Below, piece after piece: positions 19,702 to 55,321 of a stretch of 64,000 bases of DNA. The notes beneath the pieces are model-generated. The model had not been told where the DNA came from. It worked only from the letters and a program-made list of their open reading frames with translations, and made no database searches. How positions within the stretch are numbered: the first letter of the stretch is position 1; every line of letters begins with the position of its first letter. Made by a program: the position numbers and the translations under genes. Location of the stretch: the NCBI RefSeq assembly GCF_900143015.1, contig NZ_FSRT01000001.1, positions 1,736,001-1,800,000 on the forward strand, read 5' to 3'. This DNA is from Fibrobacter sp. UWB11 (GTDB lineage: Bacteria > Fibrobacterota > Fibrobacteria > Fibrobacterales > Fibrobacteraceae).

Positions 19702-19713
19702 ATTTTTAGCTTT

Positions 19714-19816
19714 TGGTTATTAGTTATTGGTTATTAGTCAATAGACTTTTGTTTAATAATCGCGTCCAAGGCGTCTTATAAAAACTAAAGACCAATGACT
19801 ATTGACTAAAGACCTC
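19714..19816. repeat. heptamer inverted-arm element A
   Basis: Left arm 19715-19756 reads in perfect 7-nt phase GGTTATT, AGTTATT, GGTTATT, AGTCAAT, AGACTTT; right arm 19782-19816 reads AAACTAA, AGACCAA, TGACTAT, TGACTAA, AGACCTC and is largely complementary. It fills the gap between the permease start and the HAD gene stop. Confidence 0.8.
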
Positions 19817-19818
19817 TG

Positions 19819-20517
19819 TTATAGATTCGTAATTAACTTCTCCCGTAAATTTAGTAAATGCGGGATGTGAAAATCCACCCAATCGGGCGCTTGTATGTTA
19901 GGATTTACAAGAACTGTAGTCCAGCCGCGTTCGTGAGCGGGTTCCAAATTGCGGAGTGAATCTTCGAGCAGCACAATTTGCGACTTTTCTTTGGCATTTG
20001 CATCCAAAACGCCTCGCGCCACAAGCCAGTTTTCAATCTTTTCGTATGCGCTTACGTGCGGTTTACCTTCCCAATCCATTAGCTTGAGGTCAAAAACATC
20101 CTCAATGGCAGGCGCAATTTCCATGCGGGCCATACCGGCGCGGCTCCAGTCCCCTCGCCCATTCGTAAACACAAAGCGGTGCCCCACAAGCGATTTTAGT
20201 AGAGCAAACTTTTCAGGCGATACTTTGGGGTAAACTAAGTATTCCGGTTCATGAATAAAGTCAAAGAAATCATCAGGCGCTATTCCGTTCATTGCCATGA
20301 GGCCCGAAAGCGTTGTTCCAAAACGATGCAGATAATCCTTGCGGATTTCCGTTGCACTTTCGAACGTACCGCCCACAGTCTTTTGGACAAACTCAGCAAT
20401 GCGGTGATCGAGCGAATTTAAGACAAAACGTTCCTCTTCGCCATAAAGCGTCAGGTCGTAATCGAACAACCAAATTTTAGAAGCATCGTTTTTTATGCCG
20501 TCGTTCAACGCACTCAC
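19819..20517 (-). CDS. HAD-family hydrolase, pyrimidine 5'-nucleotidase-like
   Basis: 232 residues from a GTG start with AAGG just upstream. Motif I is WLFDYDLTLYGEE (nucleophile and general-acid Asp), motif II FTNGR, and the motif III/IV region includes GKPHVSAYEK and LLEDSLRNLEPAHERGW. The helical cap insertion after motif I and the DYDLTLY form fit the pyrimidine 5'-nucleotidase/SDT1-like branch. Substrate is uncertain, but its place 5 bp after dgt and near thyA suggests nucleotide turnover. Confidence 0.85.
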   Translation of the reverse strand: MSALNDGIKNDASKIWLFDYDLTLYGEEERFVLNSLDHRIAEFVQKTVGGTFESATEIRKDYLHRFGTTLSGLMAMNGIAPDDFFDFIHEPEYLVYPKVSPEKFALLKSLVGHRFVFTNGRGDWSRAGMARMEIAPAIEDVFDLKLMDWEGKPHVSAYEKIENWLVARGVLDANAKEKSQIVLLEDSLRNLEPAHERGWTTVLVNPNIQAPDWVDFHIPHLLNLREKLITNL

Positions 20518-20522
20518 CTTGA

Positions 20523-21830
20523 TTAATATCCCATGGCAAGGCCGCCAATTTGACGAGCCAAGTACGTTGCATAATTATCCGTCATGCCGCTCACAAAGTC
20601 AAGTACCTGGTGGTACGCTTCGGCAGTCGTGACACTCTGCCCAATTTTAGCCTGCCCGATAAGGCGTACAATTCTGTTTGCACGGTACGAGTTGCGACCG
20701 TTTTGACGATAATCGTAAACGCCGTTGATAAATGCATCAAGCACGGTGCTAAGCGTCGTGTAACTACCGACTTCAAGTTCCGTCTTGCGGCGGTCAGGAT
20801 AAATGCGTTCCACGCCCAAACGCTTTGCAATGCGAATGCCTTCCATCGTATCGGAACGGGAAAGGTCAATCAAATGCTTGTCGAGCGTTCCTTCCATGAT
20901 GCGGTCGTAATGCTTCACAAAAAGCACAGCCACGTCATCAATCAAATTCTGGATAGCACGTCCACGAATGCTGCTGAGGAAGTCTCTGAAGTTCTGGCCA
21001 TTTTCTTCAAACTCGCGATCGATATCCACGTCCGGACCGCACAAGAAACTAAACATATTGCGCACATCGCCAAACGTCAAAATGCCAAGTTCAATTGCAT
21101 CTTCAACATCGAGGATGGAATAGCAAATGTCATCTGCAGCTTCCATCAAGTACACGAGCGGATGGCGAGCCCACACGCCGTTTTCAATTTCAGGAATACC
21201 AAGGATTTCTGCCGTTTCGCGGTAGAGTTCGGCTTCAGTTCTAAACAAACTTGTAGGGCAACCGTAATAAGCAAGTCGCGGATACTTGATCATCGAACCG
21301 ATCGTTGCGTACGTTAAGCGCATGCCACCATCGAGGAAATGGTATTCCAGTTTGCTCAAGATGCGATGGCCTTGTGCATTACCATCAAAATTTTCGAAGT
21401 CCGCAATTTCCTTGTCACTCATTTCGGACATCGGTGCGGAATGACGATTCTTGCGGAACCATTCGCGGATAGCGGCTTCGCCCGCATGGCCAAACGGAGG
21501 GTTACCGATATCGTGCGCCAAGCATGCCGACTGTACAATCGTTCCGAACTGGTATTCGTTCACATACTTCGGCAAATGCTTTTTAATCAAGTGATACACC
21601 GTAATCGCAAGGCTACGGCCCACGCTCGAAACTTCGAGGCTGTGCGTAAGACGGCTGTGAACATGGTCATTCACCGAGAACGGGTGAACCTGAGTCTTGC
21701 GGCCTAAGCGACGAAAAGCAGTAGAAAAAACGATGCGGTCGTAATCGCGATGGAAGTCAGAACGGTTCGGGTCCGGATCGGCCGGGTGACCGTAACGCGT
21801 TGCAGAAAGAAGCGTATCCCATTGTAGCAT
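20523..21830 (-). CDS. dgt: deoxyguanosinetriphosphate triphosphohydrolase-like protein
   Basis: 435 residues. It carries the HD signature of dNTP triphosphohydrolases: FRRLGRKTQV, HSRLTHSLEVSSVGR, CLAHDIGNPPFGHAGE, and MEAADDICYSILDVEDA. The enzyme releases tripolyphosphate from dGTP or other dNTPs, controlling dNTP pools. It starts 6 bp from a TATATTTT element, implying a very short leader, and is followed closely by the HAD gene. A heptamer element separates it from the metallophosphatase gene. Confidence 0.93.
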   Translation of the reverse strand: MLQWDTLLSATRYGHPADPDPNRSDFHRDYDRIVFSTAFRRLGRKTQVHPFSVNDHVHSRLTHSLEVSSVGRSLAITVYHLIKKHLPKYVNEYQFGTIVQSACLAHDIGNPPFGHAGEAAIREWFRKNRHSAPMSEMSDKEIADFENFDGNAQGHRILSKLEYHFLDGGMRLTYATIGSMIKYPRLAYYGCPTSLFRTEAELYRETAEILGIPEIENGVWARHPLVYLMEAADDICYSILDVEDAIELGILTFGDVRNMFSFLCGPDVDIDREFEENGQNFRDFLSSIRGRAIQNLIDDVAVLFVKHYDRIMEGTLDKHLIDLSRSDTMEGIRIAKRLGVERIYPDRRKTELEVGSYTTLSTVLDAFINGVYDYRQNGRNSYRANRIVRLIGQAKIGQSVTTAEAYHQVLDFVSGMTDNYATYLARQIGGLAMGY

Positions 21831-21847
21831 ATTATAAAATATAGAAA

Positions 21848-21963
21848 GGTTATAGGCTTTAGGTATTAGGCGTTAGGTAAAGAATCGCGGCTTCGCCGCC
21901 CTATACAGATGCATAAAATGCATGGATATTTCCTATTACCTATGACCTACAACCTAACTCCTA
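21848..21963. repeat. heptamer inverted-arm element C
   Basis: Left arm in 7-nt phase: GGTTATA, GGCTTTA, GGTATTA, GGCGTTA, GGTAAAG (21848-21882). Right arm: TTTCCTA, TTACCTA, TGACCTA, CAACCTA, ACTCCTA (21929-21963), whose last unit contains the stop codon of the metallophosphatase gene. The loop holds a GCGGC/GCCGC hairpin and an ATGCAT pair. Confidence 0.8.
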
Positions 21964-22950
21964 CATAGCGGCGACCGAGACGAACTTACGGTTATCCAGT
22001 TTCTGCTCGCCATCAAAACGGTAAGCAACGAGGCGCCCGTCACCGCGGTAACCAGCAACGCTGTAATCCAAGCAGCAAACGTTATCACGAATAAGTTCAG
22101 GGAGTCCCGTCAACCAATAATGTCCAAAGAAAACAGGACGTTCATTTTCGCCATAGAAATCGCGAGTCTGAATTTCAAGCGGCACTTCGAGCGGAGGCAA
22201 TTCCACACCCGGCTGGAAACTGAGTTCCTGCAAGTTGACGTTTTTCGGATTAATCCACCAACGGATTCGCGTACGCTTACGGAGTACACCTTCAGCATCT
22301 CGGAACGTCACGCCTTCCGGCAAATCCAATTCCGGGCCCTTTAAGAACAAACTTATCGGCCAATACAGCGAATCATCGTATTCGTCATTCTTGTCGTTCG
22401 CACGAGCAATCAGCTCATCGAAATTGCCATCCGTAAAAGAACGGATGCCTTCGGCTTTAAGCACTTCGGCGCATTTCAAGTCAAAGCAGGCGTGCTGCGC
22501 ACGGAACAAGTCCGTTTCCAAGTAAAACGGGAGCGTCTTGAGGAAATCGAGCATTTCCTGAAATTCAGCCTTGCGCCCGCGATAGCTTTCTACAGTCTTC
22601 ACGTGAATCGCTACTTTGTTAAAAGTATGTTCACGCAAATAGCCGCCATGAATTGCTTTTATAGGTCGCCCACCAGCTCCATTCTCTTGCCAAAAGCTAA
22701 GCGCATTGAATTCGTGATTGCCCATCAACGCAACTGCAGAACCCGCATCGCGCATGGCCCGCACAAGATTTACAGTTTCGCGAGCATGACTTCCACGGTC
22801 GATATAATCGCCTAAAAAGACAACCGTTCGAGCATTGCCCGGATAGCGATACGCGCCCCCCTGCTCTTGGTAGCCTAACTTTTTAAGGAGCACCACGAGT
22901 TCATCGTAGTGCCCATGAATATCGCCAATGAAGTCAATCGAAGCGTTCAT
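21961..22950 (-). CDS. calcineurin-like metallophosphatase (PPP type)
   Basis: About 329 residues from ATG 22950, chosen because it overlaps the thyA stop as TAATG; translation is probably coupled. The PPP-type motifs are clear: DFIGDIHGHYDEL (GDxHG), FLGDYIDRGSHARE (GDxxDRG) and ALMGNHEFNAL (GNHE), with later His residues. These enzymes hydrolyse phosphoesters, either phosphoproteins or dinucleotides such as Ap4A; which applies cannot be decided. A longer frame starting at 22983 is unlikely. Confidence 0.88.
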   Translation of the reverse strand: MNASIDFIGDIHGHYDELVVLLKKLGYQEQGGAYRYPGNARTVVFLGDYIDRGSHARETVNLVRAMRDAGSAVALMGNHEFNALSFWQENGAGGRPIKAIHGGYLREHTFNKVAIHVKTVESYRGRKAEFQEMLDFLKTLPFYLETDLFRAQHACFDLKCAEVLKAEGIRSFTDGNFDELIARANDKNDEYDDSLYWPISLFLKGPELDLPEGVTFRDAEGVLRKRTRIRWWINPKNVNLQELSFQPGVELPPLEVPLEIQTRDFYGENERPVFFGHYWLTGLPELIRDNVCCLDYSVAGYRGDGRLVAYRFDGEQKLDNRKFVSVAAM

Positions 22951-23762: not shown

Positions 23763-23778
23763 ATTGTAATTATATAAA

Positions 23779-23862
23779 AGTTACTAGTTAATAGTTAGTA
23801 GTTACTAGAATTCTTAATATGAAATTTTCTAGTAACTAGTAACTCAGAACTCGAAACTCACT
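23779..23862. repeat. heptamer inverted-arm element D
   Basis: Left arm: AGTTACT, AGTTAAT, AGTTAGT, AGTTACT, AGAATTC (23779-23813); right arm: TCTAGTA, ACTAGTA, ACTCAGA, ACTCGAA, ACTCACT (23828-23862). It starts ~17 bp upstream of thyA and runs into the stop codon of the 23858 gene. Confidence 0.8.
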
Positions 23863-36557: not shown

Positions 36558-37010
36558 TTAGAGGACGCAGCAAGCCTTGAGGCAGGGCATTTCGTAAGCG
36601 TAGCGTTCTTCCTTCTTGAACCAGAAGTCGAGTTCGCGTTCTGCAGATGCCGGGCTATCGGAGCTGTGAACGACGTTTTCAGTCATGGAAGGAGCAAAAT
36701 CGTAGCGGAGGGTACCCGGTTCCGCCTTGGCAGGATTGGTAGCACCGTTAATGGCGCGGACCTTTGCAATAGCGTTTTCGCCACCGAGAGCAAGCATGAC
36801 GGACGGGCCCTTGGTCATGTAGGCTTCGAGTTCCGGGAAGAACGGCTTCTCGACATGTTCTGCATAGAAACCGCGAGCATCTTCAGAAGTCATCTGATGC
36901 ATCTTCACGGCGCAGACAGAGAGACCGGCGCTGATGTAGCGATCAATAATACGGCCAACCAAGCCAGACTTGACAGCGTTCGGCTTGATCATTGCAAATG
37001 TCATTTCCAT
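36558..37010 (-). CDS. ndk: nucleoside diphosphate kinase
   Basis: 150 residues. TFAMIKPNAVKSGLVGRI, RGFYAEH, the nucleotide loop and the active-site His in NVVHSSDSPASAEREL are all present. The enzyme transfers the terminal phosphate between nucleoside triphosphates through phospho-His. The C-terminus ends in an unusual CLKACCVL. It precedes the frd genes by ~40 bp and shares their strand, so one transcript is possible. A TATATTTC element lies 28 bp before the start. Confidence 0.96.
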   Translation of the reverse strand: MEMTFAMIKPNAVKSGLVGRIIDRYISAGLSVCAVKMHQMTSEDARGFYAEHVEKPFFPELEAYMTKGPSVMLALGGENAIAKVRAINGATNPAKAEPGTLRYDFAPSMTENVVHSSDSPASAERELDFWFKKEERYAYEMPCLKACCVL

Positions 37011-37051: not shown

Positions 37052-39133
37052 TTACTCTTCGGATGCGATTTTCTTCATCAAATCATCGGCGAGTTTGCCG
37101 TTGCTCTTGATGTTCTGAATCAACCAATCAACCGATTCCATGAGTTCACTCTTCGGGTAAGTCTTCTTGAATTCTTCAAAGACCTTGAGCGCTTCTGCAT
37201 CCTTGTGCAAGTTTTCGTTCAGGATGAATCCGCGGCTGAACATTGCCTTTTCTGCATCCGGAGATTCCGGCCATGTTCTGTAGAATACGCGATATTCTCT
37301 CTGTGCCTTGTCGTAATCTTCCATATCGCTGTAGACATGGGCCAGTTCAAAAGTAGCCTTCTTTGCAACAGAGTCAATATCGGCATAGCGGTCACGGATA
37401 CCAGACCATGCAAGATAAGCCTTCTGGAGGCTCTTTGCCTGCGTATAAAGAGAATCCGCCGACCTCATAGCAAGTTCAACAGACCATTCCTGCGGCAAGA
37501 GCGTAATGTTGTCTGCAAAGAGATCGACCTTAGCCGTACCCCAAGAGGTCACGACTTCCTTGTCCCAACGGGCATTACGGAACACCAAATAAGCTTGTTC
37601 GAAAACACGATTCTTTGCCTGTTCATAAGTATCCGGCAAGAAGTCTTCTTCGGCATAGTAGTACGTTCTCTTCATGATATTTTCAGGAATTTCGAACCAG
37701 TCGTTCAATTCGGAACGGGACTGTTCGTAAGTCAAGGTCGGATGTGCCGGATTGCCCATACGTTCATAGAGAGCCTTGAGGGAATCTTCCGGAACAACAA
37801 TACGGCTGAGAACCTTGTTTCTATAAACCTTGATAATGTAATCTACATCGCTTTGGCGCTTCATGGCACGATATTCCCAAGAACGGTCAAGGCCAACTTC
37901 ACGGGCTTCGGTAGCAAAAGCAAGCTGGAGTGCCAGAGAACTTACAATCTGGTCATGAGTCTTGCGGGAACGGATCATCATACCATTATCGTTATATACA
38001 GCAAGAACATCCTTTTCACGGACTGCCGGTTCACCATTCATCGTCACGAGAACATAGGACGAATCCAATTCATAGTTCGCCGTTGTAGCAAGGTCACGTT
38101 CGATGGTCTTACGGACACGGTCAAGCGGTTTAACTTCGGCCGGAACCGCAGAAACACGATAGAACACATGGTAACGTCCAGTCGATTCCGAGCGGTGAAC
38201 CGCAGAAATCCCACCATCCGGCAAAGTATCGAGATCGGCGAACATGCTATTTACAAAGCCAATGCCATACGGGAGCGAATGGCCGATGAGGACCTTACCC
38301 ACCGAGCCCTTTCCCTTCTTCGTTTCCGGATTTTCGCTATACCTGGAGGCTAACGTTGCGAAAGAACCGAGATCCATTTTTCTGTGCTTAAAGCGCTTAG
38401 CAAGTTTAGCGGAGTCCGCAGATTCTACGTGAAAAACAACAAAGCCATTCGGAATCATGTACAAATTCTTGTGCTTTTCGTAGTATTCTTCCACGGAAGG
38501 CATCTGGATTTTAGTTTCCTGAATGTTGTACTTTTTCAAGAGAGCAGGACCCGTTTCACGAACAATCCTTTGGCGATGGTCCGAGACGAAACGTTCCTTT
38601 ATATCGTATGTAATCTTGACTTCGGCATTAGAATCGGCCAAATCTCTATGATGGAAAGCATAGGACTTCAGGGAATCGTAATTGGATTCGATATACTTTG
38701 CATCGGCGACCTTGTCACGAAGGTTCATGTACGAAAGCGAATCAGCAAACTGGTCACGGTGCTTGTCGTAATAGAAAGCCAGTTCGTCGTCACTGTACAT
38801 CAGGCGGTCCATCGTATAAAGACGCTGGTACACAAAAGTGAGCAGGTAATTTTCCAAGGCCGCGTTATGGGCTGCAAGCTGTTCCTTTAATTCCGGATAC
38901 TTCTGGAGAGCAACCGTATAGAGAGCCTTACGGCTAAACAAGGAACTCGAAGCCTTTCTCATCTGCTCTGTATTAGGGACAATGTTCCCCACACGCATGA
39001 TGAATGCGTAGTCTTCCTTAAAAATGGGTTCGCCATTCACCCTAGCAACGAGAGTATCCTTGTCTCCAATAGAATTACACCCTGTAAAAACAAGGGCACA
39101 GAAGGAAATAACAGCAAGCAAAGCCTTTTTCAT
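37052..39133 (-). CDS. SurA/PrsA-type peptidyl-prolyl isomerase lipoprotein
   Basis: About 693 residues from ATG 39133; lipobox VFTGC. After a long helical N-terminal chaperone-like region comes a parvulin-like domain (~230-330: VVFHVESADSAKLAKRFKHR, GSFATLASRYSENPETKKGK and following), a second degenerate part, and C-terminal TPR-like helices (ELAHVYSDMEDYDKAQREYR; EALKVFEEFKKTYPKSELME). The architecture suggests an outer-membrane-protein chaperone acting in the periplasm. It is divergent from tamB-tamA, which also serve envelope assembly. Catalytic activity is not certain. Confidence 0.82.
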   Translation of the reverse strand: MKKALLAVISFCALVFTGCNSIGDKDTLVARVNGEPIFKEDYAFIMRVGNIVPNTEQMRKASSSLFSRKALYTVALQKYPELKEQLAAHNAALENYLLTFVYQRLYTMDRLMYSDDELAFYYDKHRDQFADSLSYMNLRDKVADAKYIESNYDSLKSYAFHHRDLADSNAEVKITYDIKERFVSDHRQRIVRETGPALLKKYNIQETKIQMPSVEEYYEKHKNLYMIPNGFVVFHVESADSAKLAKRFKHRKMDLGSFATLASRYSENPETKKGKGSVGKVLIGHSLPYGIGFVNSMFADLDTLPDGGISAVHRSESTGRYHVFYRVSAVPAEVKPLDRVRKTIERDLATTANYELDSSYVLVTMNGEPAVREKDVLAVYNDNGMMIRSRKTHDQIVSSLALQLAFATEAREVGLDRSWEYRAMKRQSDVDYIIKVYRNKVLSRIVVPEDSLKALYERMGNPAHPTLTYEQSRSELNDWFEIPENIMKRTYYYAEEDFLPDTYEQAKNRVFEQAYLVFRNARWDKEVVTSWGTAKVDLFADNITLLPQEWSVELAMRSADSLYTQAKSLQKAYLAWSGIRDRYADIDSVAKKATFELAHVYSDMEDYDKAQREYRVFYRTWPESPDAEKAMFSRGFILNENLHKDAEALKVFEEFKKTYPKSELMESVDWLIQNIKSNGKLADDLMKKIASEE

Positions 39134-39174
39134 AAAGTCCTCATGAATATGTGCGTGTGAATATAACAATTTTT

Positions 39175-39301
39175 ATAGTTAATAGTTACTGGTTATTGGT
39201 CATTAGTTATTAGTTACTAGAGATTCTAAAAGTGAAGTTTTGGGAACTTGGGAAATAAAGCATTGCCGACCATTGACTAATGACCATTGACTAACGACTA
39301 G
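39175..39301. repeat. heptamer inverted-arm element B
   Basis: Seven phase-perfect units on the left (ATAGTTA, ATAGTTA, CTGGTTA, TTGGTCA, TTAGTTA, TTAGTTA, CTAGAGA; 39175-39223) and five on the right (CGACCAT, TGACTAA, TGACCAT, TGACTAA, CGACTAG; 39267-39301), largely complementary. It sits in the divergent gap between the PPIase gene and tamB. Confidence 0.85.
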
Positions 39302-39426: not shown

Positions 39427-42400
39427 TTGAAGAGCATACTCTCAATCTTTTTTATAAAAGCCGTCATAACGACGGCGATTGTAGGCGCTGTGGCACTTGG
39501 CGTCTGGTATGTTCATTTTGCCATCGAAGAGATTCTTTCGACCCCGCACACGTTCGGGAACCTCACAATTACCCCATACGGGCACCGTCAAAACAACCTC
39601 CTAGAACATTTCTACGATTCAGTCCACGTTCAACAGGGTGAGTCCTCTTACATGATTCGAGGGCCGCATTTGGACATCACCCCATTCGGTAACAACAGGG
39701 GGATTCTCCTCGAAGCAGACGAGGTGTCTGCAAATTTTGTCGCCGACACAACAAGCAAGGACAAAGGACCAAACGCCGCCCCTCCAAAAAAGCTTGAACC
39801 CATTGAATTTCCTGACAATATCAGAATACCGTTCCCGGCCAGGGTCCGCCTAGGAAAGCTCGACTTCAACATGGGAGATATGGGTTGGAGCGCCCAAAAC
39901 ATCGATTTGCAAAACGACGATGAAAAGGTTGTCACTTTAAGCGCCGACAGCATCAAGGGCGACTTCATCAAGGATGCCGCAGGATTGCAGCTCGATGTAG
40001 ACTTCACGAACAAGAATGTCATTGTCAATGGCAAAATCAAGACGCAAAACGACTACATAAATCTGAGCGCCTCGGCCCCCAAAAACGACCTCACCCAGTT
40101 AAAGGCTTCGACGAATATAAACGTCAAGGATCCTCTCAAGTGGGTTCCGATGAAGCTTTCGAAAGCGATTCCAGCAATCACGAACCTCAATCTCAACGGC
40201 AACGTTTCTACTTCGCTCACCAAAAAATCTCTACAATACAACTTTACGCTTAAAACGCATATCGGTGAATACTGGCCGTTCTTGCCGCTCGACGCTACAA
40301 TCAAGGTGAACGGCACCCCCAAGCAGACCAATATCGAAACGTTCTTCAAGAACAACGAAGGCGGCACCATCAGTCTCGACGGAACCATCGATGACAAGCT
40401 CGACTTTGACTTTTCTGGCGAAATCGCAAACATGAGCGCCATGTACGGCCCGCAAATGATGCCCATGGACATGGATATCCAGTCCATCACCAAATCAGGG
40501 GACAACATCGACGCATCCATCGAAACACGCGAAGGCTCCGTCGTCAGGGCTCACGTGAAAACAAAGGACAGCCTCAAAGTATTCTTTGCAGCAAACCTTT
40601 CGGCCATGGAACCTTGGGCGCTGGACTGGGTCAGGGGTAACGTCGAAATCGGGAAGAATCCAAAAATCATCGGTTCCTTCCAAAACAACAAATTGCGCGC
40701 TTACGTAAAAATTGATTCCATCATCAACGCCTATCACCTGAAGGCAGACTCGCTCCGCATGCAGCTAGTCCTTGACCTCGGACGACGCTTCATTGATTTC
40801 CCGAAAGCAACTATATACACACCCAACGAAGAATTTTCCATTACAGGCGATGTAGACTACCACGATCCCACGCTCCGTACATCTTGGCATCTCAAGCAAA
40901 AGAACGGAGGTTCTGCATCAACGACGGTACATGTGGGCGACTCACTCATGATCTGGGCAGAAGCGGACCACGCCGAAATTTCGACCATTCCGTTCTCTGA
41001 CATCGAAATAAGCGACCAATTCAAAGGTTCTGTTACAGGTTCCGTTGCCTACAATCTTGATTCAAGAGTTGGCGAAGCGGAGCTCGATATCGACGGAAAC
41101 GTGGAACCGTTTATTGTTCACGGGCACACCAAGATTAGGGAAAGTGGCGACACTATCGTCATTGACACCGCTGTCTTTATGCACAACAGCAACAAGGTTG
41201 CCATGGAAGCAACGTTTGTGCTCCCGAACGATTCGAACCCAGCCTACAAGCCCACCGCCATGCTCCCCATCCAAATTTTGCACGCATGGGCTTCGGCAGA
41301 AGACTTCAACTTGCCGATTCTTTTGGAACCGCTTGGCGACACAACGCTTGCCTCGGGTAGTTTCAATGGTGAAATTTCGTTCGAAGAAGAAAGTGGTTTG
41401 CTCGGCAACATCGATTTCAAGAATCTGAAATTCAACAACATTCCCCCAGAGCTCTTGAAGATCCAACAAATGAACGTTTCGGCAAAGAAGAACAAGATTG
41501 AACTTCTTACCGACTTCGAAATTTTGAACGGCACATGGACCGGCAATACAAACATTGTCGTCGATGATATTTTCGAACCCACAAGAAAAGTCAAGCTCAC
41601 TTATTTAAGCCCCAACAGCGGGTATATCAAGAGCGAAGGCATCTTGAACAACGATTTCGATTTCTTGGGCACCATCAATTTGGGAGGCATGTGGCTCATC
41701 CCCGAAACGCGTGCTGAAATTGCAAAGACCGACCTCAAGATTGACGTTCAGGCAACGCTCCGCGAAGGTTTGAAAGGCATCAAGGCCCAAATTTGGTCGG
41801 ACTCTACCATACTCAAGTATTCAACGCTCCCGACAGACTTCCCGCTCCGCGTGAGAGGCGACCTCAAAGACGGCATGCTCGCCATCAACGAGATTTCTAC
41901 GCAAAACGAATTTGGCGATTTGCTCATTGCCACGTTGCTTTACGATTTGCAACAAATGCGATTGGAAGCCATCGATATCAGTACCGAAAAGTACACGCTT
42001 GAAATGGACAGCCATATCATCACCTTGCGAAACGTCACAAGCCACTTGGAAGATTCCGAAGACCAGATGTCCATTGTCACGAACATTCCAACCATTCAAT
42101 ACAAGTTTAATGACGAAACATTTGGTACTGCAAACTTGATTGGCAAGAGCGACATCACGCTCAACATTCCGCACACGCAAGAAAGACAAATCAAGAACAA
42201 GAGCGTCAGCGGCAATTTCATTATCGACAAGCTCGTCTATAGAAAAGACCTGGACATCGAAATCACGCCAAGTTCTCTCGACAAACTTTTGTCGCTACTG
42301 AACAACGCTATTGCAAACCTGCGCAATAAAGAAAAGACCGAAGCAAAGATTTCTGTTTCGAGCCCCATCGACTTGTCGTTCCATGTCAGCGATTCGCAAA

Positions 42401-43398
42401 GCGACTCCGTCGAAATCATCACGCCGTTCGCATCATTCCCGCTTACGCTTGACATTTGGGTTCTCGGTACAACAAACAGACCGCTCTTGCGCGGTGATGT
42501 TACCAACGCCGACAACGGATTCATTGGCGTGAAAGACATCTACGAATTTGACCTGAACGCATTCAACATCTCTTGGAATGACGTTCCATGGCAACACGGC
42601 ATCATCGATGTTTCGAGTACGCAGGAACTCCCCTACTGTTCTGAAACAGAAGACAAAGAGAAAGAAACCTGCCCTGTCAACCTAGACATTCAGGGAACGA
42701 TTACAAACCCGCAACCCATTCCGAGTTCGAACTGCGGAACAGAATCTACGGCTGCCGACACGTACCGCAACATATTCCTGGGATGCGTCGCTACAGAATC
42801 CGGCGTTTCCGCCGACTGGAACAAGCTTGCGGGTAAAGCAATCGGTAAGTTCATTTCTTCGACCGCAAACAAGACTTTGGGCGGCGATTACATTGGCGAT
42901 ATCGACATGAAGGTGATGTTGTTCGACAATTCCGGCAACGACAAGGATTCTTCTTACGTCAAGGTTCCGATTTCACTTGACCGCTGGGTGAAAAACTTGA
43001 GCCTCATCTTCGGTTATACGCAAGACCAGAGCCAGAGCCCGACATACGACCAGGCTTTGCAATTCGGTGCCAGCTACACGCTCCCTGTATTCCAAGATAA
43101 GGAATACTCGCACAAGAACCATTTCTCACCGTCGCTTTCCTTGAACGGTCAAATTGTCAGAAAGCAATACCAGTTCAGCACAGGCGAAGACAACGACAGC
43201 CGTATCGAAAAGAACATCGGTGTGAACTACACGTACAAGTTCTGGAATCCCTGCATTTTAGGCATCGGCCATTGCGAAACGGTTCGTCCGCCAAGAGCAA
43301 TGCTCCAGCCCAACGACCCGAACGCCGTTGATTCGACAAGCACAAAGAACAACGAAATCAAGCCGAACGGAACCAAGCCAACGGAGAAAGCAAAATGA
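39427..43398 (+). CDS. tamB: TamB-family translocation and assembly protein
   Basis: 1323 residues from a TTG start with AGGGG upstream; no other start precedes the N-terminal membrane anchor (~9-31). The long middle is repetitive beta-strand sequence, as expected for a hydrophobic-groove protein, and the C-terminal third holds the DUF490/TamB domain (GDVTNADNGFIGVKDIYEFD, NISWNDVPWQHGIIDVSSTQ). TamB spans the periplasm and works with TamA in inserting outer-membrane proteins or moving phospholipids. The tail after ~1290 is low-complexity. It overlaps tamA by 4 bp (ATGA). Confidence 0.9.
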   Translation: MKSILSIFFIKAVITTAIVGAVALGVWYVHFAIEEILSTPHTFGNLTITPYGHRQNNLLEHFYDSVHVQQGESSYMIRGPHLDITPFGNNRGILLEADEVSANFVADTTSKDKGPNAAPPKKLEPIEFPDNIRIPFPARVRLGKLDFNMGDMGWSAQNIDLQNDDEKVVTLSADSIKGDFIKDAAGLQLDVDFTNKNVIVNGKIKTQNDYINLSASAPKNDLTQLKASTNINVKDPLKWVPMKLSKAIPAITNLNLNGNVSTSLTKKSLQYNFTLKTHIGEYWPFLPLDATIKVNGTPKQTNIETFFKNNEGGTISLDGTIDDKLDFDFSGEIANMSAMYGPQMMPMDMDIQSITKSGDNIDASIETREGSVVRAHVKTKDSLKVFFAANLSAMEPWALDWVRGNVEIGKNPKIIGSFQNNKLRAYVKIDSIINAYHLKADSLRMQLVLDLGRRFIDFPKATIYTPNEEFSITGDVDYHDPTLRTSWHLKQKNGGSASTTVHVGDSLMIWAEADHAEISTIPFSDIEISDQFKGSVTGSVAYNLDSRVGEAELDIDGNVEPFIVHGHTKIRESGDTIVIDTAVFMHNSNKVAMEATFVLPNDSNPAYKPTAMLPIQILHAWASAEDFNLPILLEPLGDTTLASGSFNGEISFEEESGLLGNIDFKNLKFNNIPPELLKIQQMNVSAKKNKIELLTDFEILNGTWTGNTNIVVDDIFEPTRKVKLTYLSPNSGYIKSEGILNNDFDFLGTINLGGMWLIPETRAEIAKTDLKIDVQATLREGLKGIKAQIWSDSTILKYSTLPTDFPLRVRGDLKDGMLAINEISTQNEFGDLLIATLLYDLQQMRLEAIDISTEKYTLEMDSHIITLRNVTSHLEDSEDQMSIVTNIPTIQYKFNDETFGTANLIGKSDITLNIPHTQERQIKNKSVSGNFIIDKLVYRKDLDIEITPSSLDKLLSLLNNAIANLRNKEKTEAKISVSSPIDLSFHVSDSQSDSVEIITPFASFPLTLDIWVLGTTNRPLLRGDVTNADNGFIGVKDIYEFDLNAFNISWNDVPWQHGIIDVSSTQELPYCSETEDKEKETCPVNLDIQGTITNPQPIPSSNCGTESTAADTYRNIFLGCVATESGVSADWNKLAGKAIGKFISSTANKTLGGDYIGDIDMKVMLFDNSGNDKDSSYVKVPISLDRWVKNLSLIFGYTQDQSQSPTYDQALQFGASYTLPVFQDKEYSHKNHFSPSLSLNGQIVRKQYQFSTGEDNDSRIEKNIGVNYTYKFWNPCILGIGHCETVRPPRAMLQPNDPNAVDSTSTKNNEIKPNGTKPTEKAK

Positions 43399-45368
43399 TT
43401 TTACTGATTTGCGCATTATTGTTTTTTTCGTCGTTTGCGTTTGCTGATAATGATGACAAGAATCCTTGGTCCGTCAACATCAGCGGAAATAAGATTTTCT
43501 CGAAATTCCAGCTGAACGAACAGCTCGACATTCCCGATGAATTCGGACAGCTTGATACGATTAAGCAAGACTTTTTGATGCGCCTTTCTTCGGAAAACGT
43601 ACGAGCGCTTTATTATTCCCGTGGTTATTACAGCCTCGATTTAAAGCTGATTATTCAACGCGAGCAGTTATCGAACGGTTCCATCCAACGCAACTACTAC
43701 ATTTCTGTTAGCGAAGGAGAATGTTACCGATTTAACGAAGCAAAAATTATTTCTGCAAGCGACGATTCTATTCCCATCGACTTGAGCACGCTAAAGATTA
43801 CAAAGCACCAGTACTACAACCAAGAAGACCTTTCTGAAGATTTGCAGGACATTCAAAAAGCGTACCGCAAACAAGGTAATTTACACGTTTATATTTCATC
43901 GGAAGAACTTGTCGATACTACCGCCAAAGTTGTCAATGTAAACATCAATGTCAATCCGGGGCCAAAAGTTTTGATGGGCAACATCGTCACCACGACACAG
44001 CGCATCATGAACAAAAACGAGAAAAAGACTGAGCCGGAACAAGGCCTCACCGACACCGCATGGCTTTCTTCTCTTTGGCGAATCAAAAAAGGCGATATCA
44101 TTGACGGTAACCAGTATTTCAACTTCAAGAGCAAACTTTACTCCACCCAGCTATTTACGCAAGTCAAGCTAAACGACGAACTTCGCGAAGACGGTCTCTC
44201 TGACGTTCACTTGGATGTTATCGAACGCGTCCCCGGCGAAGCGAGATACGGCTTTTTCTTCGAAGAAGTTTACGGTTTTGGAGCTTTATTCTACGCCGAC
44301 CATAAAAACTTCTTTGGGAAGTTCAACGAATTTTCAACGAACTTCCAAATTGCACAAAACAAGCAAGAAATCACGCTCGGCTATGCAAACCCGCTTTTGT
44401 TCGGAACTGCATTTACATTCATTCCGACAGCAATCCGCTTTGTAGACCGTCTCTCGTTCAACCATGAAAAAATCACCCCGCCCGCCTACCCCGACAGTGT
44501 TGAAGAACGTTACGAAATCATCAACCGCGGCGACTTGACATTCGGCATCACAAACAACATTAAATTCCGTAGTTCCATCGATACGCGATACGTGAACAAA
44601 AATCACGATGAACTTTTCAAGCTCAAAGGCGAAATCGGTCTGACTTTCGACTACACCAACGATTACTTCAATCCGACCAAAGGATTCCGCTTTATGCCTA
44701 CGGTGGGTCTTGGCACAAACTTTAACGTGAAATCAGACAACAGCGGATATTCGGACGACCAAGATGGCCACATTTATACTTATAGCGAAGCTACATTAAA
44801 CATCTACGTTCCCTTATTCTGGACTCTTTATGGAGCGCTCAGCGGAAGTATCGGTAGCTTTTTCAACAAAGCTATCGAAGACGACGCCCGCATGTTCTAT
44901 CAAGGCGGTTCCCGTTCTGTACGCGGTTACCGATTCCGCAGCGTTTTCGCAAGCTACACGACAAAAGACACGGTTGCAGTCAAGACCGAAAGTGGCAGCG
45001 ATTCCTCGGAAGTTAAAGACAACATCCATACAGCTCTAACGCCGATGTATTTCCGCATCAACGAAGAACTTCGTTGGACACTTCCTTGGAAATCGTTAAG
45101 AAGCTGGCAAATTGTGCAATTCTTTGACTGGGCCAAAGTTGTAGATATAAAAGACAACACTTACGAAGATGGTCAAGAAGCAAGTATTGGCTTAGGCATA
45201 CGCTATCAATGGCAATTCCTGACGTTCCGCCTTGATTATGCAATAGTAAAAGGCCTCATGACCAACGAAAACTGTAGTGACAGCGAAAGCACCAACTGCA
45301 GAAATCACAAGAAGAAAAAAGGCTTTGATTGGAATAGAATCGCCTTTGACCTTTCGCAGGCATTCTAG
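43395..45368 (+). CDS. tamA: TamA/BamA (Omp85) family outer-membrane protein
   Basis: 657 residues. Signal peptide (~1-17), POTRA-like repeats (~25-280: WSVNISGNKIFSKFQLNEQL, VNVNINVNPGPKVLMGNIVT and following), then a 16-strand-like barrel with the Omp85 motif GGSRSVRGYRF, the VRGF/Y of loop 6. The N-terminal start overlaps the tamB stop. The pair is the inner- and outer-membrane halves of one assembly machine. Convergent with the ABC ATPase gene, overlapping it by 4 bp at the stops. Confidence 0.92.
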   Translation: MILLICALLFFSSFAFADNDDKNPWSVNISGNKIFSKFQLNEQLDIPDEFGQLDTIKQDFLMRLSSENVRALYYSRGYYSLDLKLIIQREQLSNGSIQRNYYISVSEGECYRFNEAKIISASDDSIPIDLSTLKITKHQYYNQEDLSEDLQDIQKAYRKQGNLHVYISSEELVDTTAKVVNVNINVNPGPKVLMGNIVTTTQRIMNKNEKKTEPEQGLTDTAWLSSLWRIKKGDIIDGNQYFNFKSKLYSTQLFTQVKLNDELREDGLSDVHLDVIERVPGEARYGFFFEEVYGFGALFYADHKNFFGKFNEFSTNFQIAQNKQEITLGYANPLLFGTAFTFIPTAIRFVDRLSFNHEKITPPAYPDSVEERYEIINRGDLTFGITNNIKFRSSIDTRYVNKNHDELFKLKGEIGLTFDYTNDYFNPTKGFRFMPTVGLGTNFNVKSDNSGYSDDQDGHIYTYSEATLNIYVPLFWTLYGALSGSIGSFFNKAIEDDARMFYQGGSRSVRGYRFRSVFASYTTKDTVAVKTESGSDSSEVKDNIHTALTPMYFRINEELRWTLPWKSLRSWQIVQFFDWAKVVDIKDNTYEDGQEASIGLGIRYQWQFLTFRLDYAIVKGLMTNENCSDSESTNCRNHKKKKGFDWNRIAFDLSQAF

Positions 45369-46928: not shown

Positions 46929-46963
46929 AGTAGGAAGTAGAAAGAGGAAAACAGGAAGTTGTT
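46929..46963. repeat. heptamer element H, single arm
   Basis: Five units in phase: AGTAGGA, AGTAGAA, AGAGGAA, AACAGGA, AGTTGTT, directly upstream of the TATCTTTG element. Confidence 0.6.
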
Positions 46964-46970
46964 TTTCCGT

Positions 46971-49118
46971 CTATTCCTTAACGCAGCGAACCGAGAAGGC
47001 TAAATTATATGTATCGATAGAATAAGGGGAACGAAGCGCCCAAGAAACGGATTCATTAAATCCTGACACATCAACAGAAAAACACGCATGAGCCCCATTA
47101 GCATTTTCACCATCGACCCAATATTCAGCATTTATCCTCACGCCTACGTTGCCATATCCTTTAGGAGCATTACAGAATTCATCGATAAGCACAGAGTTTG
47201 TATCTAAACGGAAATGCATTTCACCCGCAGGAACAGCACTAAATCCGAATGTATTGTAGCCTTCTTTATATTCCCAACCTACAGTATCCTTTAAAAAATT
47301 TTCAGCATAATCAAAACCACCCAAGTCGTATTTAGCTTGAGCGGCAAGCATCAATAAATGATTAGCCTCTTCTACAGAAGGCAAACGCCAACCAGCAGGA
47401 CACGCATTTTTCGCCACATTCCAAGGATACAAGCGACCACGGCTATCACACGATGTCGTATCGGCACAATTGCAAAAAGACAACGCATTCGGAACTTCAT
47501 ATTTTAAGTTATCTGCAAACCAAACGGTACCATCAATATCAACAGTCCTATAGACATTGCCATCTCGTTCATCCGTAAACTTACCATACTCGCCAGAATA
47601 AGTTGCTGGTTTTTCGGGCTTTATAGAAAAACCTAAAGGAGACGAAGACGTTTGCATTTGGCTTTCATCATCTTTGAGACAACGAACATAAGCCTCATAG
47701 GAATTTCCAATTCCATCTGTTTCTAACCCGGCACTGTCAGCACCAATTTTCAAAACGATATTGCCGAACCAATCCCCCCTAGTGGGCGCATTCGACGAAG
47801 ACCAAAAGCGAATCTGATCTTTTCCTTCGGGAGGCTTAGCTCCAAAGCCGTATGCATCAAGACCATTTTTTCCATCAGGCCAACCACTCGTTGATTTCAG
47901 CATCGGTCCCGTAAAAGTTCCTTCTACAAAATTTGTCGCATTGTTTAAACCATTTACAAAAGCACTAAGGACTCTCCATTCATAATAACTCGGTACATGC
48001 CAGCCATCAGGACAAATTCCCTGAATCGGTTGTTTAGCAGAGCAATAGTTCCACATTCCATAATCATCGCCCCATATTAAACTATCCAAATAGCACCCCG
48101 TAACTGGAGCATTTATCATTTCTTCATAAGTGTAAGTTTCTTTGGAACCATAAGATAAATTTTCGGCCATCCAGACCCAACCGCCAATATCGACTGTTTT
48201 ATAAACATGCCCATCGCGGGAATCTGTAAACGATTCAAAAGGCCCAGTGTAAGTTTTCTCGGCACGGTCCATCGGTAAATCTAAACCGTAATTTCCATCC
48301 CCCTGAATACAACGGACTACATATCCGCTCGCTTCATAAGTTGTCACAGAAGTAAAATACGCAAAAGCATTTTCATAAGACATGTACAACGCTTTGGGTT
48401 CATCAGTCAGAATATGCAAATCTTCATGGAGACCAGTTGCATAATCCTTACTATAGGACGGCAAAGCACTGAAGCCAAAACAATCTACCCCGTTTCCAAC
48501 ACCACTCCATCCAGTAGTTGATTTCAGATACTTACCTGCATATCTCGAGCCCCCAGCATAATCAAGCAATGTTTGAACATCATCCGTAGTTGGGATGCGC
48601 CAGCCATCAGGGCATAGGCCACGAGCAGGCCGTGCAATAGGGCAATTTTCAAATGTTACACCGTCATAGACAAAATGATTTTTATAAACATACTCCCCGA
48701 TATATAAAGCAGGACGTTCGCCAGAGCAACCCGCAGCTATTCCCCCAACAGCATCAACCCAGGAATAATAATACTTCGAATCACCCGTATATCTTTCACG
48801 ATTATACTCCAAGTTTTCCGCCATCCAAACTTGATCCCCAATTTTAACGGTCTTATAAACATGCCCGTCACGAACATCCGTAAATTCACCAAAAATTTTT
48901 GTAGAATCGGAGCACACAAATTTCGGATCCTCATCATAAACGACTGGAACCCGCGAACTAGACGTTGTGAAATCAATTTTTCTAGGAGTAGAATCAACAG
49001 CTTTAGGGGTTGAATCAATAACCGAAGATGAATTATCTTGGCAAGCCGTAAAAACAAGCAATGCGCCACAAATCACACAAAATCTGAGGCCGGAAATTTT
49101 GCAACAAAACAACTTCAT
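46971..49118 (-). CDS. lipoprotein with three FISUMP domains
   Basis: 715 residues, ATG with GGGGAT upstream. Lipobox VFTAC and a short Ser/Thr linker lead to three tandem Fibrobacter major paralogous domains (~70-270, ~290-490, ~515-715). Each begins FTD-x-RDG-x-VY-x-TV, continues with WMAENL or WFADNL and GWR-x-P or GWHVP, and closes near RC-[IL/VK]. The third differs in being shorter around the SAVPAGE segment. The protein is probably exposed at the surface, but no activity is proven for the domain. The next two upstream genes encode single-domain versions. Confidence 0.9.
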   Translation of the reverse strand: MKLFCCKISGLRFCVICGALLVFTACQDNSSSVIDSTPKAVDSTPRKIDFTTSSSRVPVVYDEDPKFVCSDSTKIFGEFTDVRDGHVYKTVKIGDQVWMAENLEYNRERYTGDSKYYYSWVDAVGGIAAGCSGERPALYIGEYVYKNHFVYDGVTFENCPIARPARGLCPDGWRIPTTDDVQTLLDYAGGSRYAGKYLKSTTGWSGVGNGVDCFGFSALPSYSKDYATGLHEDLHILTDEPKALYMSYENAFAYFTSVTTYEASGYVVRCIQGDGNYGLDLPMDRAEKTYTGPFESFTDSRDGHVYKTVDIGGWVWMAENLSYGSKETYTYEEMINAPVTGCYLDSLIWGDDYGMWNYCSAKQPIQGICPDGWHVPSYYEWRVLSAFVNGLNNATNFVEGTFTGPMLKSTSGWPDGKNGLDAYGFGAKPPEGKDQIRFWSSSNAPTRGDWFGNIVLKIGADSAGLETDGIGNSYEAYVRCLKDDESQMQTSSSPLGFSIKPEKPATYSGEYGKFTDERDGNVYRTVDIDGTVWFADNLKYEVPNALSFCNCADTTSCDSRGRLYPWNVAKNACPAGWRLPSVEEANHLLMLAAQAKYDLGGFDYAENFLKDTVGWEYKEGYNTFGFSAVPAGEMHFRLDTNSVLIDEFCNAPKGYGNVGVRINAEYWVDGENANGAHACFSVDVSGFNESVSWALRSPYSIDTYNLAFSVRCVKE

Positions 49119-52458: not shown

Positions 52459-52466
52459 GCTTTTTT

Positions 52467-52501
52467 AGACGAAAGACGAGAGACGAGAGACGAGAGATTT
52501 T
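52467..52501. repeat. heptamer element F, single arm
   Basis: AGACGAA, AGACGAG, AGACGAG, AGACGAG, AGATTTT in perfect 7-nt phase upstream of the glyA promoter. The rest of the gap to 52630 shows nothing else recognisable. Confidence 0.75.
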
Positions 52502-52630: not shown

Positions 52631-54325
52631 CTACCGGGGACCGGCTTCGTTTTTCACACGAACGGCAAGTTCTGCACCAGCTTCATCAACAGAAACCTTG
52701 TAATCGGGCTTATAGCCCTGGGCATCGCCAGCAAGTTCCTCGCCACCACGACCAAACGTATTCGAATCCATGTAGACAAATCCAACCGTTGATTCGTCCA
52801 GCGAGCCATCTTCGTTTTTCAGGCGATATCCCCGAACTGGCACATCGTTATTGTAGACATTGCCCTCGATGTAGCAAGCCGCATAATCAGAACATTCCAT
52901 TCCGGCATCGCCCACGCCGTAAATGAAATTGTTGTAGGCGTGGATTTTACCACGACGAGCAAGCACACCACGAAGTTCCAAATTCGAGAAATAATTGTGG
53001 TGCAAAGTCAATGTCTGCGCAGAATCGATGAAAATGTCCGGTTCAAGCCCAAATAAAATGCCGGACTGTGCATTTTCAAAACGGTTCCACGAGAGCGTGA
53101 CCGCATTCGAGCCTCGCTTGACATCAACCAAGATTAGCGGATACTCTTCAAACGTGCAATGGTCCACCCAGACATGGTGCGTGCGGTTATGAATCGAGAG
53201 AGCGCGACGGCTTGTTGTATCATGAGCTGTTATCGCAGGCGCCGTAAAAGTCAAGTTTTCAAAAATAAGATTGGACGATTCATTTGTCAAAACCCCCATG
53301 CCCGTAATGCGAATATCACGCCCACGACCATCCACAGTTTTATCAGACTTTATGCGCAATGGCGAACGCAAATTGTACGTTCCATCTTTTTCAAAGAGAA
53401 TCCAGACTGGAGTATCCTTCTCGGCGCATTCACGGAAAGAGCCCTGGGACAAGGCGACCTTAGTTCCGTAATTTCCCAACGAATCCACCTTTGAAGAGTC
53501 GACAACATCAATTAAATCTTCAGTTGTCGTGACAATGCAAACTTCGCCTTCCACTTTCTCAATTTTTCCCGTGCTGTCGGTTTTTCCAGTAGCACCAAGC
53601 GTTCCAACTGCATAGCCTTGAATTTGTTTGAGCAAGGCTTCATGAGCACTCCAGTCGCTCTCGGGATATTCTGTTGCTGTTGCGATTTCAGGCTTTACGA
53701 CCTTGATGTCCGAAGCCACATCGGAGCCGTCAACAAATAAAGTATCACCTGCATTGGACTGCACTAACGTCGAATGAACTTCATCAGGGTCACCAATTTG
53801 CACATCGAAACTCCCCTGCGGAAGCGAGTCAATTACAAAATGTCCTGTACTATCAGGAACAACATAACGGTCAAGACCCGCCACGCGGACAACAGGCGAT
53901 TCACCAAGGACTACATAGCCTTCAATAGACGTTAGTTCGCCCAACTTGATGGTATCAACCTTGGAATCGGCCTTGGCATCAAGCGCTATAGAATGCACTG
54001 CACCCGAGGCATCTGTTTCGCTCACATTGCGAGCTTCAATGGTGTAGCGACCTTTGCGGACTTCGAACAAAACGTGCCCATCCTCATTGGTTTCGTTCCA
54101 AGTTTGTTCCGCAGGGCCGCTAGAAAGGTAGTCATCAGGCAAAATGCGGACGCGCGCCATCGAAGCGGGCGTTCCATCCGCCATTTGTATGTACAAAGCA
54201 ATTGTCGATTCGGCTTCTGTTCCACCGGCAACTTTATTGTCACCACAAGCAGCAAGGAATACAGCCAATGCACCGAATAAAACGTATGCACGCATTCGAG
54301 CAACCATCATCCATTCCTTTTTCAT
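52631..54325 (-). CDS. polysaccharide lyase family 1 pectate lyase lipoprotein
   Basis: 564 residues. Lipobox FLAAC; two N-terminal Ig-like/carboxypeptidase-regulatory-like modules (~40-130 and ~130-200); then the right-handed beta-helix lyase domain (~260-530) with HHVWVDHCTFEEYP, VDVKRGSNAVTLSWNRFENA and RGVLARRGKIHAYNNFIYGV, where the Arg before GKIHAYNN fits the PL1 catalytic base. It cleaves polygalacturonate by beta-elimination; the usual DGLxD calcium ligands are only partly kept. The start overlaps the TIGR02147 stop (ATGA) with AGGGAGG upstream. Confidence 0.9.
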   Translation of the reverse strand: MKKEWMMVARMRAYVLFGALAVFLAACGDNKVAGGTEAESTIALYIQMADGTPASMARVRILPDDYLSSGPAEQTWNETNEDGHVLFEVRKGRYTIEARNVSETDASGAVHSIALDAKADSKVDTIKLGELTSIEGYVVLGESPVVRVAGLDRYVVPDSTGHFVIDSLPQGSFDVQIGDPDEVHSTLVQSNAGDTLFVDGSDVASDIKVVKPEIATATEYPESDWSAHEALLKQIQGYAVGTLGATGKTDSTGKIEKVEGEVCIVTTTEDLIDVVDSSKVDSLGNYGTKVALSQGSFRECAEKDTPVWILFEKDGTYNLRSPLRIKSDKTVDGRGRDIRITGMGVLTNESSNLIFENLTFTAPAITAHDTTSRRALSIHNRTHHVWVDHCTFEEYPLILVDVKRGSNAVTLSWNRFENAQSGILFGLEPDIFIDSAQTLTLHHNYFSNLELRGVLARRGKIHAYNNFIYGVGDAGMECSDYAACYIEGNVYNNDVPVRGYRLKNEDGSLDESTVGFVYMDSNTFGRGGEELAGDAQGYKPDYKVSVDEAGAELAVRVKNEAGPR

Positions 54326-55272
54326 GATTGCCTCCCTTGAACTTCGGCAGGTTTGCGTGACTCATCCACAATTTCACGAGACGCACCCTCGCCCGAAGAT
54401 TGTTGCATTTCAGCACCGCGAATACGGCGTTTGCGCCCGCGCCTTTGCGGCGGCGGATACGGGTCCGAAAGCGGGAAAAGCTGCATGCCCAGTTGGAAAA
54501 CGCGATTCGGCTTTTGGCAAGCCCCAACCTTCGCTAAGACCTCTCGACGGAACCGGCGAACCATTTCCACAAGTTCTTTATAAGTCGTTTCATCACAACC
54601 AAACGCAAGCGTCGAAAGATTGCGCTCACTACGATCAAAACGGTCCATAGCCGTCTGCGCCACGTCCAGATTCTGTTGAATGTAAGCGTTCACCGCCGTA
54701 TTGTACGATTCAAAACCACTTGAAACCAAGCCTTGCGTTTGTTCATAAAAGCCAGTCGTCTCGTTTTTCTTAATCATTGAAAGGCGTTCCAAAAGCGCAA
54801 TCGAAGACTTGACCTGACTTGCAGAAATCGGCGGACGCACCATGAGCCCCAAGGCTGCATCGTCACCCACATACGGATAAAACGTCACCAGTTCACGAAC
54901 AACGGCGTGGTACCAGTGGTCAAAATATTCAAACTGGTCCTTTGCCAAGTTTTCGACCTTGCATTCCTTAGAAGCCACAAGCTTTTCTAAGAACAGGCGA
55001 CTTTCGGTATGCGTTTTCGCCTGGTTAAAAGCGACCATGTCAGCAAAGTACGCTTTTTCGCGTTCATCACTGCAAAAGATAGACGCAAAGACCTCGACAA
55101 TGCGGTCGGTCAAATTGCGCTTGCCTTGCAAAATCTTATTGAACATCGATGAATCAAAACCTGCTTTATCGGCGATATAACGATGGCTAAAACGCCAATC
55201 ACTCGCATGGCGTTCTTCGTATGCGTCCTTCAAAAATTCGCGATAATTCAGATATTCAAAGATGTTGATCAT
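54322..55272 (-). CDS. TIGR02147/DUF4423 family protein, probable HTH regulator of the PL1 gene
   Basis: 316 residues. Same family as 4953-5786: NIFEYLNYREFLKDAYEERH, a helix-turn-helix-like segment (FSHRYIADKAGFDSSMFNKI, ~30-50), helical DUF4423 part, and LGMQLFPLSD. The C-terminal ~50 residues are a Pro/Arg/Glu-rich extension (PPPQRRGRKRRIRGAEMQQS) lacking in the other member. It overlaps the PL1 gene by 4 bp, again pairing a family member with a downstream lipoprotein. Two GTCCACA sites and a heptamer tract lie upstream. Confidence 0.87.
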   Translation of the reverse strand: MINIFEYLNYREFLKDAYEERHASDWRFSHRYIADKAGFDSSMFNKILQGKRNLTDRIVEVFASIFCSDEREKAYFADMVAFNQAKTHTESRLFLEKLVASKECKVENLAKDQFEYFDHWYHAVVRELVTFYPYVGDDAALGLMVRPPISASQVKSSIALLERLSMIKKNETTGFYEQTQGLVSSGFESYNTAVNAYIQQNLDVAQTAMDRFDRSERNLSTLAFGCDETTYKELVEMVRRFRREVLAKVGACQKPNRVFQLGMQLFPLSDPYPPPQRRGRKRRIRGAEMQQSSGEGASREIVDESRKPAEVQGRQS

Positions 55273-55273
55273 G

Positions 55274-55308
55274 TTTTAGTAGGCTGTTAGAAGTAGACAG
55301 TAGGCAGA
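55274..55308. repeat. heptamer element G, single arm
   Basis: TTTTAGT, AGGCTGT, TAGAAGT, AGACAGT, AGGCAGA in 7-nt phase, in the leader between the TIGR02147 start and the TATATT element at 55322. Confidence 0.6.
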
Positions 55309-55321
55309 AACTGCATAACTT

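Follow-up and report, generated by a model that had tools for sequence, protein, structure and literature searches.

Repeats built of seven-nucleotide units are known from several bacterial groups. The heptanucleotide STRRs of Calothrix and Nostoc, reportedly described by Elhai in 2008 (a study cited in PMC3116915), are tandem arrays of degenerate heptamers found at many intergenic loci, and small dispersed repeats (SDR) are said to be embedded in them. Inverted repeats that are themselves built from short tandem repeats characterize the FB foldback elements of Drosophila, while the REP/BIME/REPIN sequences and the MITEs are short, palindromic, dispersed, intergenic and non-autonomous. In the tRNA-Leu intron of Nostoc, two arms of degenerate heptamers form a hairpin whose length varies with the copy number of the unit (PMC3488679). 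The heptamer arrays of Xanthomonas and Nostoc, with units such as GGGAATC or GGGGA(C/T)T, are G-rich and G-quadruplex-forming, and those of Xanthomonas point away from the gene edge; the consulted part of that account makes no mention of paired inverted arms (PMC4692102). TAACTGA direct repeats occur in Beggiatoaceae, Cyanobacteria and Bacteroidetes, mostly just upstream of start codons, and one Beggiatoaceae genome bears 169 direct sets and a single indirect one (PMC4679880). Heptanucleotide elements have been described in Geobacter as well (PMC2700814). The open-access literature that we searched yielded no account of heptamer elements in Fibrobacter, nor did it present the pairing of inverted heptamer arms as a general design of intergenic repeats.

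Such elements are present in Fibrobacter sp. UWB11 (genome G000, a 3.76-Mb assembly), where we analyzed a window of 64,000 nucleotides (C1:1736001-1800000). A preliminary description of this window pointed to degenerate heptamers in exact 7-nt register in two inverted arms at 39175-39301, with comparable structures at 19714-19816, 21848-21963 and 23779-23862. Direct reading of the sequence agrees with it at all four places (Table 1). The loci do not all have the same unit, however: TRGTYAN (TRACYAN on the opposite strand) is found at some of them only, and the units are TAGGTNN at 21848, AGACGAG at 52467 and TAGRMRG at 55274. Of the three single arms that it listed, that at 46929 comprises only about two units of the TAGRMRG type.

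Table 1. Heptamer elements and single arms in the window (position 1 is its first nucleotide).
Feature	Coordinates	Strand	Description
19714 element, left arm	19710..19745	+	TRGTYAN type
19714 element, core	19746..19781	-	imperfect GCGGC-family stem-loop, GACGCCTTGGACGCGATTATT on - strand
19714 element, right arm	19782..19816	-	end adjoins TAA stop (19819-19821) of gene 19819-20517(-)
21848 element, left arm	21847..21879	+	TAGGTNN type
21848 element, core	21880..21930	-	two small stem-loops, GGGCGGCGAAGCCGCGATT + ATGCATTTTATGCAT
21848 element, right arm	21931..21963	-	TAGGTNN type
23779 element, left arm	23775..23812	+	AGTTANT (TRGTYA) type
23779 element, right arm	23826..23860	-	outermost triplet is TGA stop (23858-23860) of neighbouring - strand gene
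39175 element, left arm	39175..39222	+	TRGTYAN type, 6-7 units
39175 element, spacer between arms	39223..39266	.	without GCGGC core
39175 element, right arm	39267..39301	-	reverse orientation (TRACYAN on + strand), 5 units
Short arm	46929..46945	+	about 2 units, TAGGAAG-like; weak, missed by lag-7 scan
Single arm	52465..52500	+	AGACGAG type; kept in G047, G004, G045
Single arm	55276..55310	+	TAGRMRG (GTAGGAAG-like) type; starts at edge of gene 54322-55272(-)

The 39175 element lies between divergent genes. On one side, 37052-39169(-) encodes a peptidyl-prolyl isomerase/BamD-YbgF-like fusion protein; on the other, 39427-43398(+) encodes a 1323-aa protein with no NCBIfam match and is followed by 43395-45368(+), which encodes an Omp85 (BamA/TamA-like) protein; the two are perhaps a TamB-TamA pair. 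Further on, 46971-49118(-) encodes a FISUMP-domain protein (TIGR02145, E 3e-96), typical for Fibrobacter. Rfam gives no match above its gathering score within the window.

The heptamer arrays of this genome are not confined to the window. As the preliminary description had anticipated, the 7-nt periodicity extends to other intergenic DNA, and confirmed arrays are spread over the genome: 642 intergenic regions (1.26 Mb of G000) contain 101 segments periodic at lag 7, against 2-7 in ten dinucleotide-preserving shuffles and 0-13 at each of the other lags from 4 to 13 and at 15. Lag 14, which equals two units, gives 70 segments in the same regions. Within the first 800 kb, 54 of the 56 lag-7 segments are intergenic, and the segments at lags 6, 9, 12 and 15 are mostly coding. 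The pattern TRGTYANTRGTYANTRGTYA, three units long, is matched at 102 places in UWB11, where its reversed control finds nothing, and it occurs in 48 of the 61 genomes of the genus.

TRGTYAN is, however, just one of several words in which these arrays are written, and the amplified unit type differs genome by genome. UWB11 has 102 pattern matches of TRGTYA, 8 of TAGRMRG and 1 of AGACGAG; in G030, there are 229 TAGRMRG matches versus 5 of TRGTYA; in G010, 174 versus 1; and G013 has 70 of AGACGAG. The window itself holds TAGGTNN, AGACGAG and TAGRMRG besides TRGTYAN, and the relatives add further period-7 types, namely TTAGTGG, TATGGGG, TTCCGAA and TTCTAAG. Control-pattern counts also drew attention to G011, G012 and G033, where many AYTGRTN arrays replace or accompany TRGTYAN. 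A second abundant palindromic repeat, GTCATCCTGAGCGAAGTCGAAGGATC / GTCATTCCCG...CGGGAATCTCC, often occurs within or beside the heptamer elements, as at C1:517259, C1:697027 and many other intergenic regions.

Regarding the arrangement of the arms, all 14 pairs of TRGTYA arms lying up to 150 nt apart are inverted, with the G-strand first, and so are 36 of 45 pairs when all unit types in eight genomes are considered. In these eight genomes, again with all unit types, both arms of a locus tend to be of the same type (0.571, versus 0.520 for swapped arms), a value that none of 5,000 permutations reached (p<2e-4). The preliminary description had gone further, with arms complementary at each locus and able to fold into a long imperfect hairpin. 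The arms are indeed inverted and foldable, and the inverted arrangement is kept between genomes, but what is matched from one arm to the other is only the unit type. Among the 14 TRGTYA pairs, the duplex energy is -19.8 kcal/mol with the own partner and -22.3 kcal/mol with a swapped arm, no better pairing was seen within loci than between them (permutation p 0.996), and there is no sign of base-level compensation. Since swapped arms pair as well as the original ones or better, their complementarity follows from one consensus written in opposite orientation, and we rejected a base-by-base co-evolution of the arms on the basis of this swap test. The predicted RNA folding differs from locus to locus, with z-scores of -5.0 at 21848, -3.5 at 23779 and -2.6 at 19714, but only -1.9 at the focal 39175. 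In the fold predicted for 21848, a 2x2 internal loop interrupts the stem every 7 nt, leaving helices of 5-6 bp, and the tip carries two small stem-loops.

Between the arms of many elements there is a small stem-loop with the consensus GCGGCnnnGCCGCgATTATA. The best 24 matches to its profile (E up to 0.07) fall without exception in intergenic DNA and within heptamer-armed elements, visual inspection deciding on arms that the lag test did not detect, and the arms surrounding this core belong to three unit types (TRGTYA, TAGGT and TAGRMAG). The pattern used to search for the core left the fourth pair of the stem free, demanding no pairing there; among the 150 matches listed genus-wide, 145 are Watson-Crick (109 G-C, 31 C-G and 5 A-T at this fourth pair), compared with 88 expected if both sides were independent. 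In an alignment of 22 core sequences, the formal count is 97.3% paired and the covariation is 0.317 versus 0.117 after shuffling (0/500). All these counts ignore shared ancestry. Core and arms can also part company. At C1:1864856, G000 and G047 share the same core and the same loop, yet the arms are of the TAGGT type in one genome and of the TAGTC type in the other; this is a concerted change of two inverted arrays, and the change of type in both arms suggests an in-place arm conversion.

The elements have a definite orientation with respect to their neighbouring genes, whose edges were set with a simple codon-usage caller, start positions being approximate. In UWB11, 25 of the 28 single TRGTYA arms have as their closer gene edge the one from which they point away, and an open-frame stop codon is found behind the arm in 31 cases versus ahead of it in 7. 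TAG accounts for 22 of those 31 stops, 18 of them in register with the units, and it is likewise enriched among the stops of genes that end no more than 15 nt from an array (20/32, versus 135/546 elsewhere; p=1.4e-5). At 21848, for instance, the TAG stop (21961-21963) of gene 21961-22950(-) is part of the first unit of the right arm. For complete elements, this polarity follows from their inverted ends, and the single arms may be remnants of them. A start codon in register with the unit was also considered and dropped, as the cases were too few. On the promoter side, the left arm of 21848 lies immediately upstream of the -10-like box (TATATT) of gene 20523-21830(-), and at most loci of the window a similar box abuts the left arm on its outer side (21831-21848, 39158-39170, 52459-52466, and the ndk promoter 5' of 36558-37010), so that the arrays fill the space between the stop of one gene and the core promoter of the next.

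Some elements are dispersed copies of one another. Those at C1:588370 and C1:712947 are full-length, 79.7% identical over 118 nt and surrounded by unrelated flanks, and the 21848 element is 78% identical to the former over 120 nt. From one species to the next, an element is either kept almost unchanged or differs entirely: in 17 of 36 comparisons, an array-bearing intergenic region could not be aligned to its orthologue (no 80-nt window reaching 0.6 identity), versus 11 of 130 without arrays (p=6e-7). The 19714 region and its G047 orthologue share 99.4% identity, the figure for their coding flanks being 86%, and its element is 98.1% identical in G051 and absent from G014 and G045. We set aside such identity peaks at shared elements (1.00 in a background of 0.85) as proof of recent transfer, because 34 of the 130 regions without arrays also hold a window of at least 95% identity. 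One and the same site can bear different unit types in different species, so a simple insertion model needs hot spots or replacement. Thus, a TAGGAAG array takes the place of the AGACGAG arm at 52465..52500 in G053, and the BamD-like/ndk junction is, genus-wide, either empty or occupied by arrays of at least five unit types. Some alleles of this junction are flanked by TA, replacements blurring the junction elsewhere; a TA target duplication is suggestive at a few alleles only, and none of the orthologous regions compared contrasts an empty with a filled site in such a way that a clean target-site duplication can be seen. In several replacements, the last codons of the neighbouring gene are altered as well. 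In G045, the orthologue of 23763-23857 has three direct copies of a unit of about 50 bp (CTTCGTCCTCAGAATGACGTCATTACGTTTTCTCAAACCGAAG...) and no heptamer element.

Where an array is conserved, it can gain or lose whole units, in line with the gain and loss put forward in the preliminary description. At 39175, the left arm is longer by exactly one unit, TTATTGG, in both G051 and G001, and 10 of the 27 indels inside conserved arrays measure 7 or 14 nt, a share far above that found outside (p=2e-5). As for substitutions, 23 of 30 fall on R, Y or N (p=2e-4, slightly favoured by an array recognition that tolerates one mismatch per unit), sparing T, G, T and A, and every change at an R or a Y is a transition.

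Outside the genus, a four-unit TRGTYAN pattern run against 84,980 species finds at least 120 stretches in other genomes; among 80 matches listed, which are the first rows of the scan and not a random sample, 47 are cyanobacterial, 15 belong to Bacteroidota and 18 to others (e.g., Planctomycetes and Chloroflexi). In the stretches from these first rows, 73 of 95 arrays point away from the nearer gene edge (p=1.5e-7), and the stop codon lies behind the array in 55 and ahead in 16; of 107 loci, 61 have a second heptamer array no more than 160 nt ahead, inverted in 50 of them, and 7 have one behind. The claim of the preliminary description that the elements resemble cyanobacterial STRRs in unit length only is therefore wrong. 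Judging by these matches, the exact consensus is common in cyanobacterial genomes, where a second and usually inverted heptamer array comes after it, and small hairpin cores inside heptamer arrays are a further trait shared between Fibrobacter and the STRRs/SDR. What distinguishes the Fibrobacter arms is that they are short (3-7 units), often paired and type-matched around a covarying core, and that one core goes with three arm types. Contrary to the fixed intron locus of the Nostoc tRNA-Leu gene, they occupy many intergenic loci. They share with the TAACTGA repeats, to which the AYTGRTN word of some Fibrobacter genomes is related, their occurrence as intergenic arrays across distant phyla, but those repeats are direct. 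With MITEs they have in common terminal inverted repeats and dispersed homologous copies with unrelated flanks, whereas, unlike REPs and MITEs, no fixed terminal sequence or clean target duplication was found, nor any RAYT/Y1 gene in UWB11.

Taken as a whole, the loci are best explained as a class of heterogeneous, short (about 100-130 bp), palindromic, intergenic and dispersed elements. The reading that we favour, with a probability of roughly 55%, is that these are non-autonomous foldback elements of a MITE/REP/STRR-like kind with slippage-prone heptamer arms, and that they are mobilised. Each would consist of a heptamer array, a spacer often including one or two small GC stem-loops, and the same heptamer type inverted. 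The arms would lengthen and shorten by replication slippage; in single-stranded DNA or RNA, each unit would form a helix of 4-6 bp and leave its variable position(s) to an internal loop, whereby pairing would tolerate any whole-unit change. Copies would spread between sites and species by some transposase or recombination, and would persist where the neighbouring stop codon and -10 region stay usable. Both this movement and the folding in vivo are proposed from sequence comparison. Regarding the enzyme, the Y1 transposase (PF01797) is present in 20 of 61 congeners and has no match in G000, G014 or G051, all of them array-rich, and the reverse transcriptase RVT_1 (PF00078) has none in G000; on these searches for two families, mobilisation by RAYT/Y1 or a reverse transcriptase was rejected for UWB11. 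Several observations speak against this reading: no clean target-site duplication and, with these two families searched, no mobilising enzyme came to light, different unit types occupy one site in different species, and the arms at C1:1864856 seem to have been converted in place. Only tentatively, and with more doubt than confidence, would we extend this reading to a cross-phylum foldback class, with interchangeable type-matched arms written to a degenerate code, a conserved core, a machinery other than IS200/RAYT or reverse transcription, and a fixed polarity at gene edges.

An alternative in which nothing moves would have the arrays arise where they stand, by 7-nt polymerase slippage at gene edges, with the mirror arm made by template switching at quasi-palindromes. 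The 7-nt indels agree with it, as do the different unit types at one site and the two types joined in register in one array; moreover, among long SSRs of many bacteria a unit of seven is the most frequent, and slippage has been proposed for such repeats (PMC4679880, PMC4692102). However, template switching predicts a better pairing within than between loci, and the swap of arms reveals none. Together with the full-length dispersed copies, their shared covarying cores and the all-or-none turnover, this makes an entirely local origin rather improbable in our view. We find it less probable still that selection maintains these hairpins at the ends of genes because they function as RNA or DNA, for termination, for 3' mRNA protection or as the site of a repeat-binding protein. 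A TAG in every unit would give stops in three frames, arrays are found within 10 nt of a stop codon far more often than at random (36% versus 12%) and often supply the TAG, substitutions spare the constant bases, and 7-nt-periodic helices are predicted at 21848 (z -5.0). Against such a role, AGACGAG and TATGGGG, two of the main types, have no stop in the unit, and the opposite strand has stops too; all-frame stops are thus rejected as the general reason for 7 nt, and they do not explain the polarity, because the reverse orientation gives stops as well. The presence of the elements, in addition, varies among close species, and the focal one sits between divergent genes. An intrinsic terminator is disfavoured by the missing U-tract, of which there is none after the hairpin on either strand (A/T beside the arms being near background), and by the lack of an excess at convergent gene pairs (9/55 of the array-bearing intergenic regions versus 78/446 of all). 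Lastly, an artefact of chance or of AT-rich intergenic composition, for which the AT-richness of the units could speak, is practically negligible against the counts in the shuffled and reversed controls.

The Fibrobacter elements belong to a known kind of bacterial repeat, of which they are a more elaborate and more regular version, and they look more like a compact mobile element than like a passive microsatellite. So far, heptamer repeats have been reported one case at a time, from cyanobacteria, Xanthomonas, Geobacter and Beggiatoaceae, and have usually been ascribed to slippage. The Fibrobacter copies link these scattered cases by testable rules: the arms are inverted and of one type, the covarying core is separable from them, the polarity away from the gene edge holds across phyla, stop codons are captured, and turnover is all-or-none. 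They also supply concrete sequences with which to seek the mobilising enzyme.
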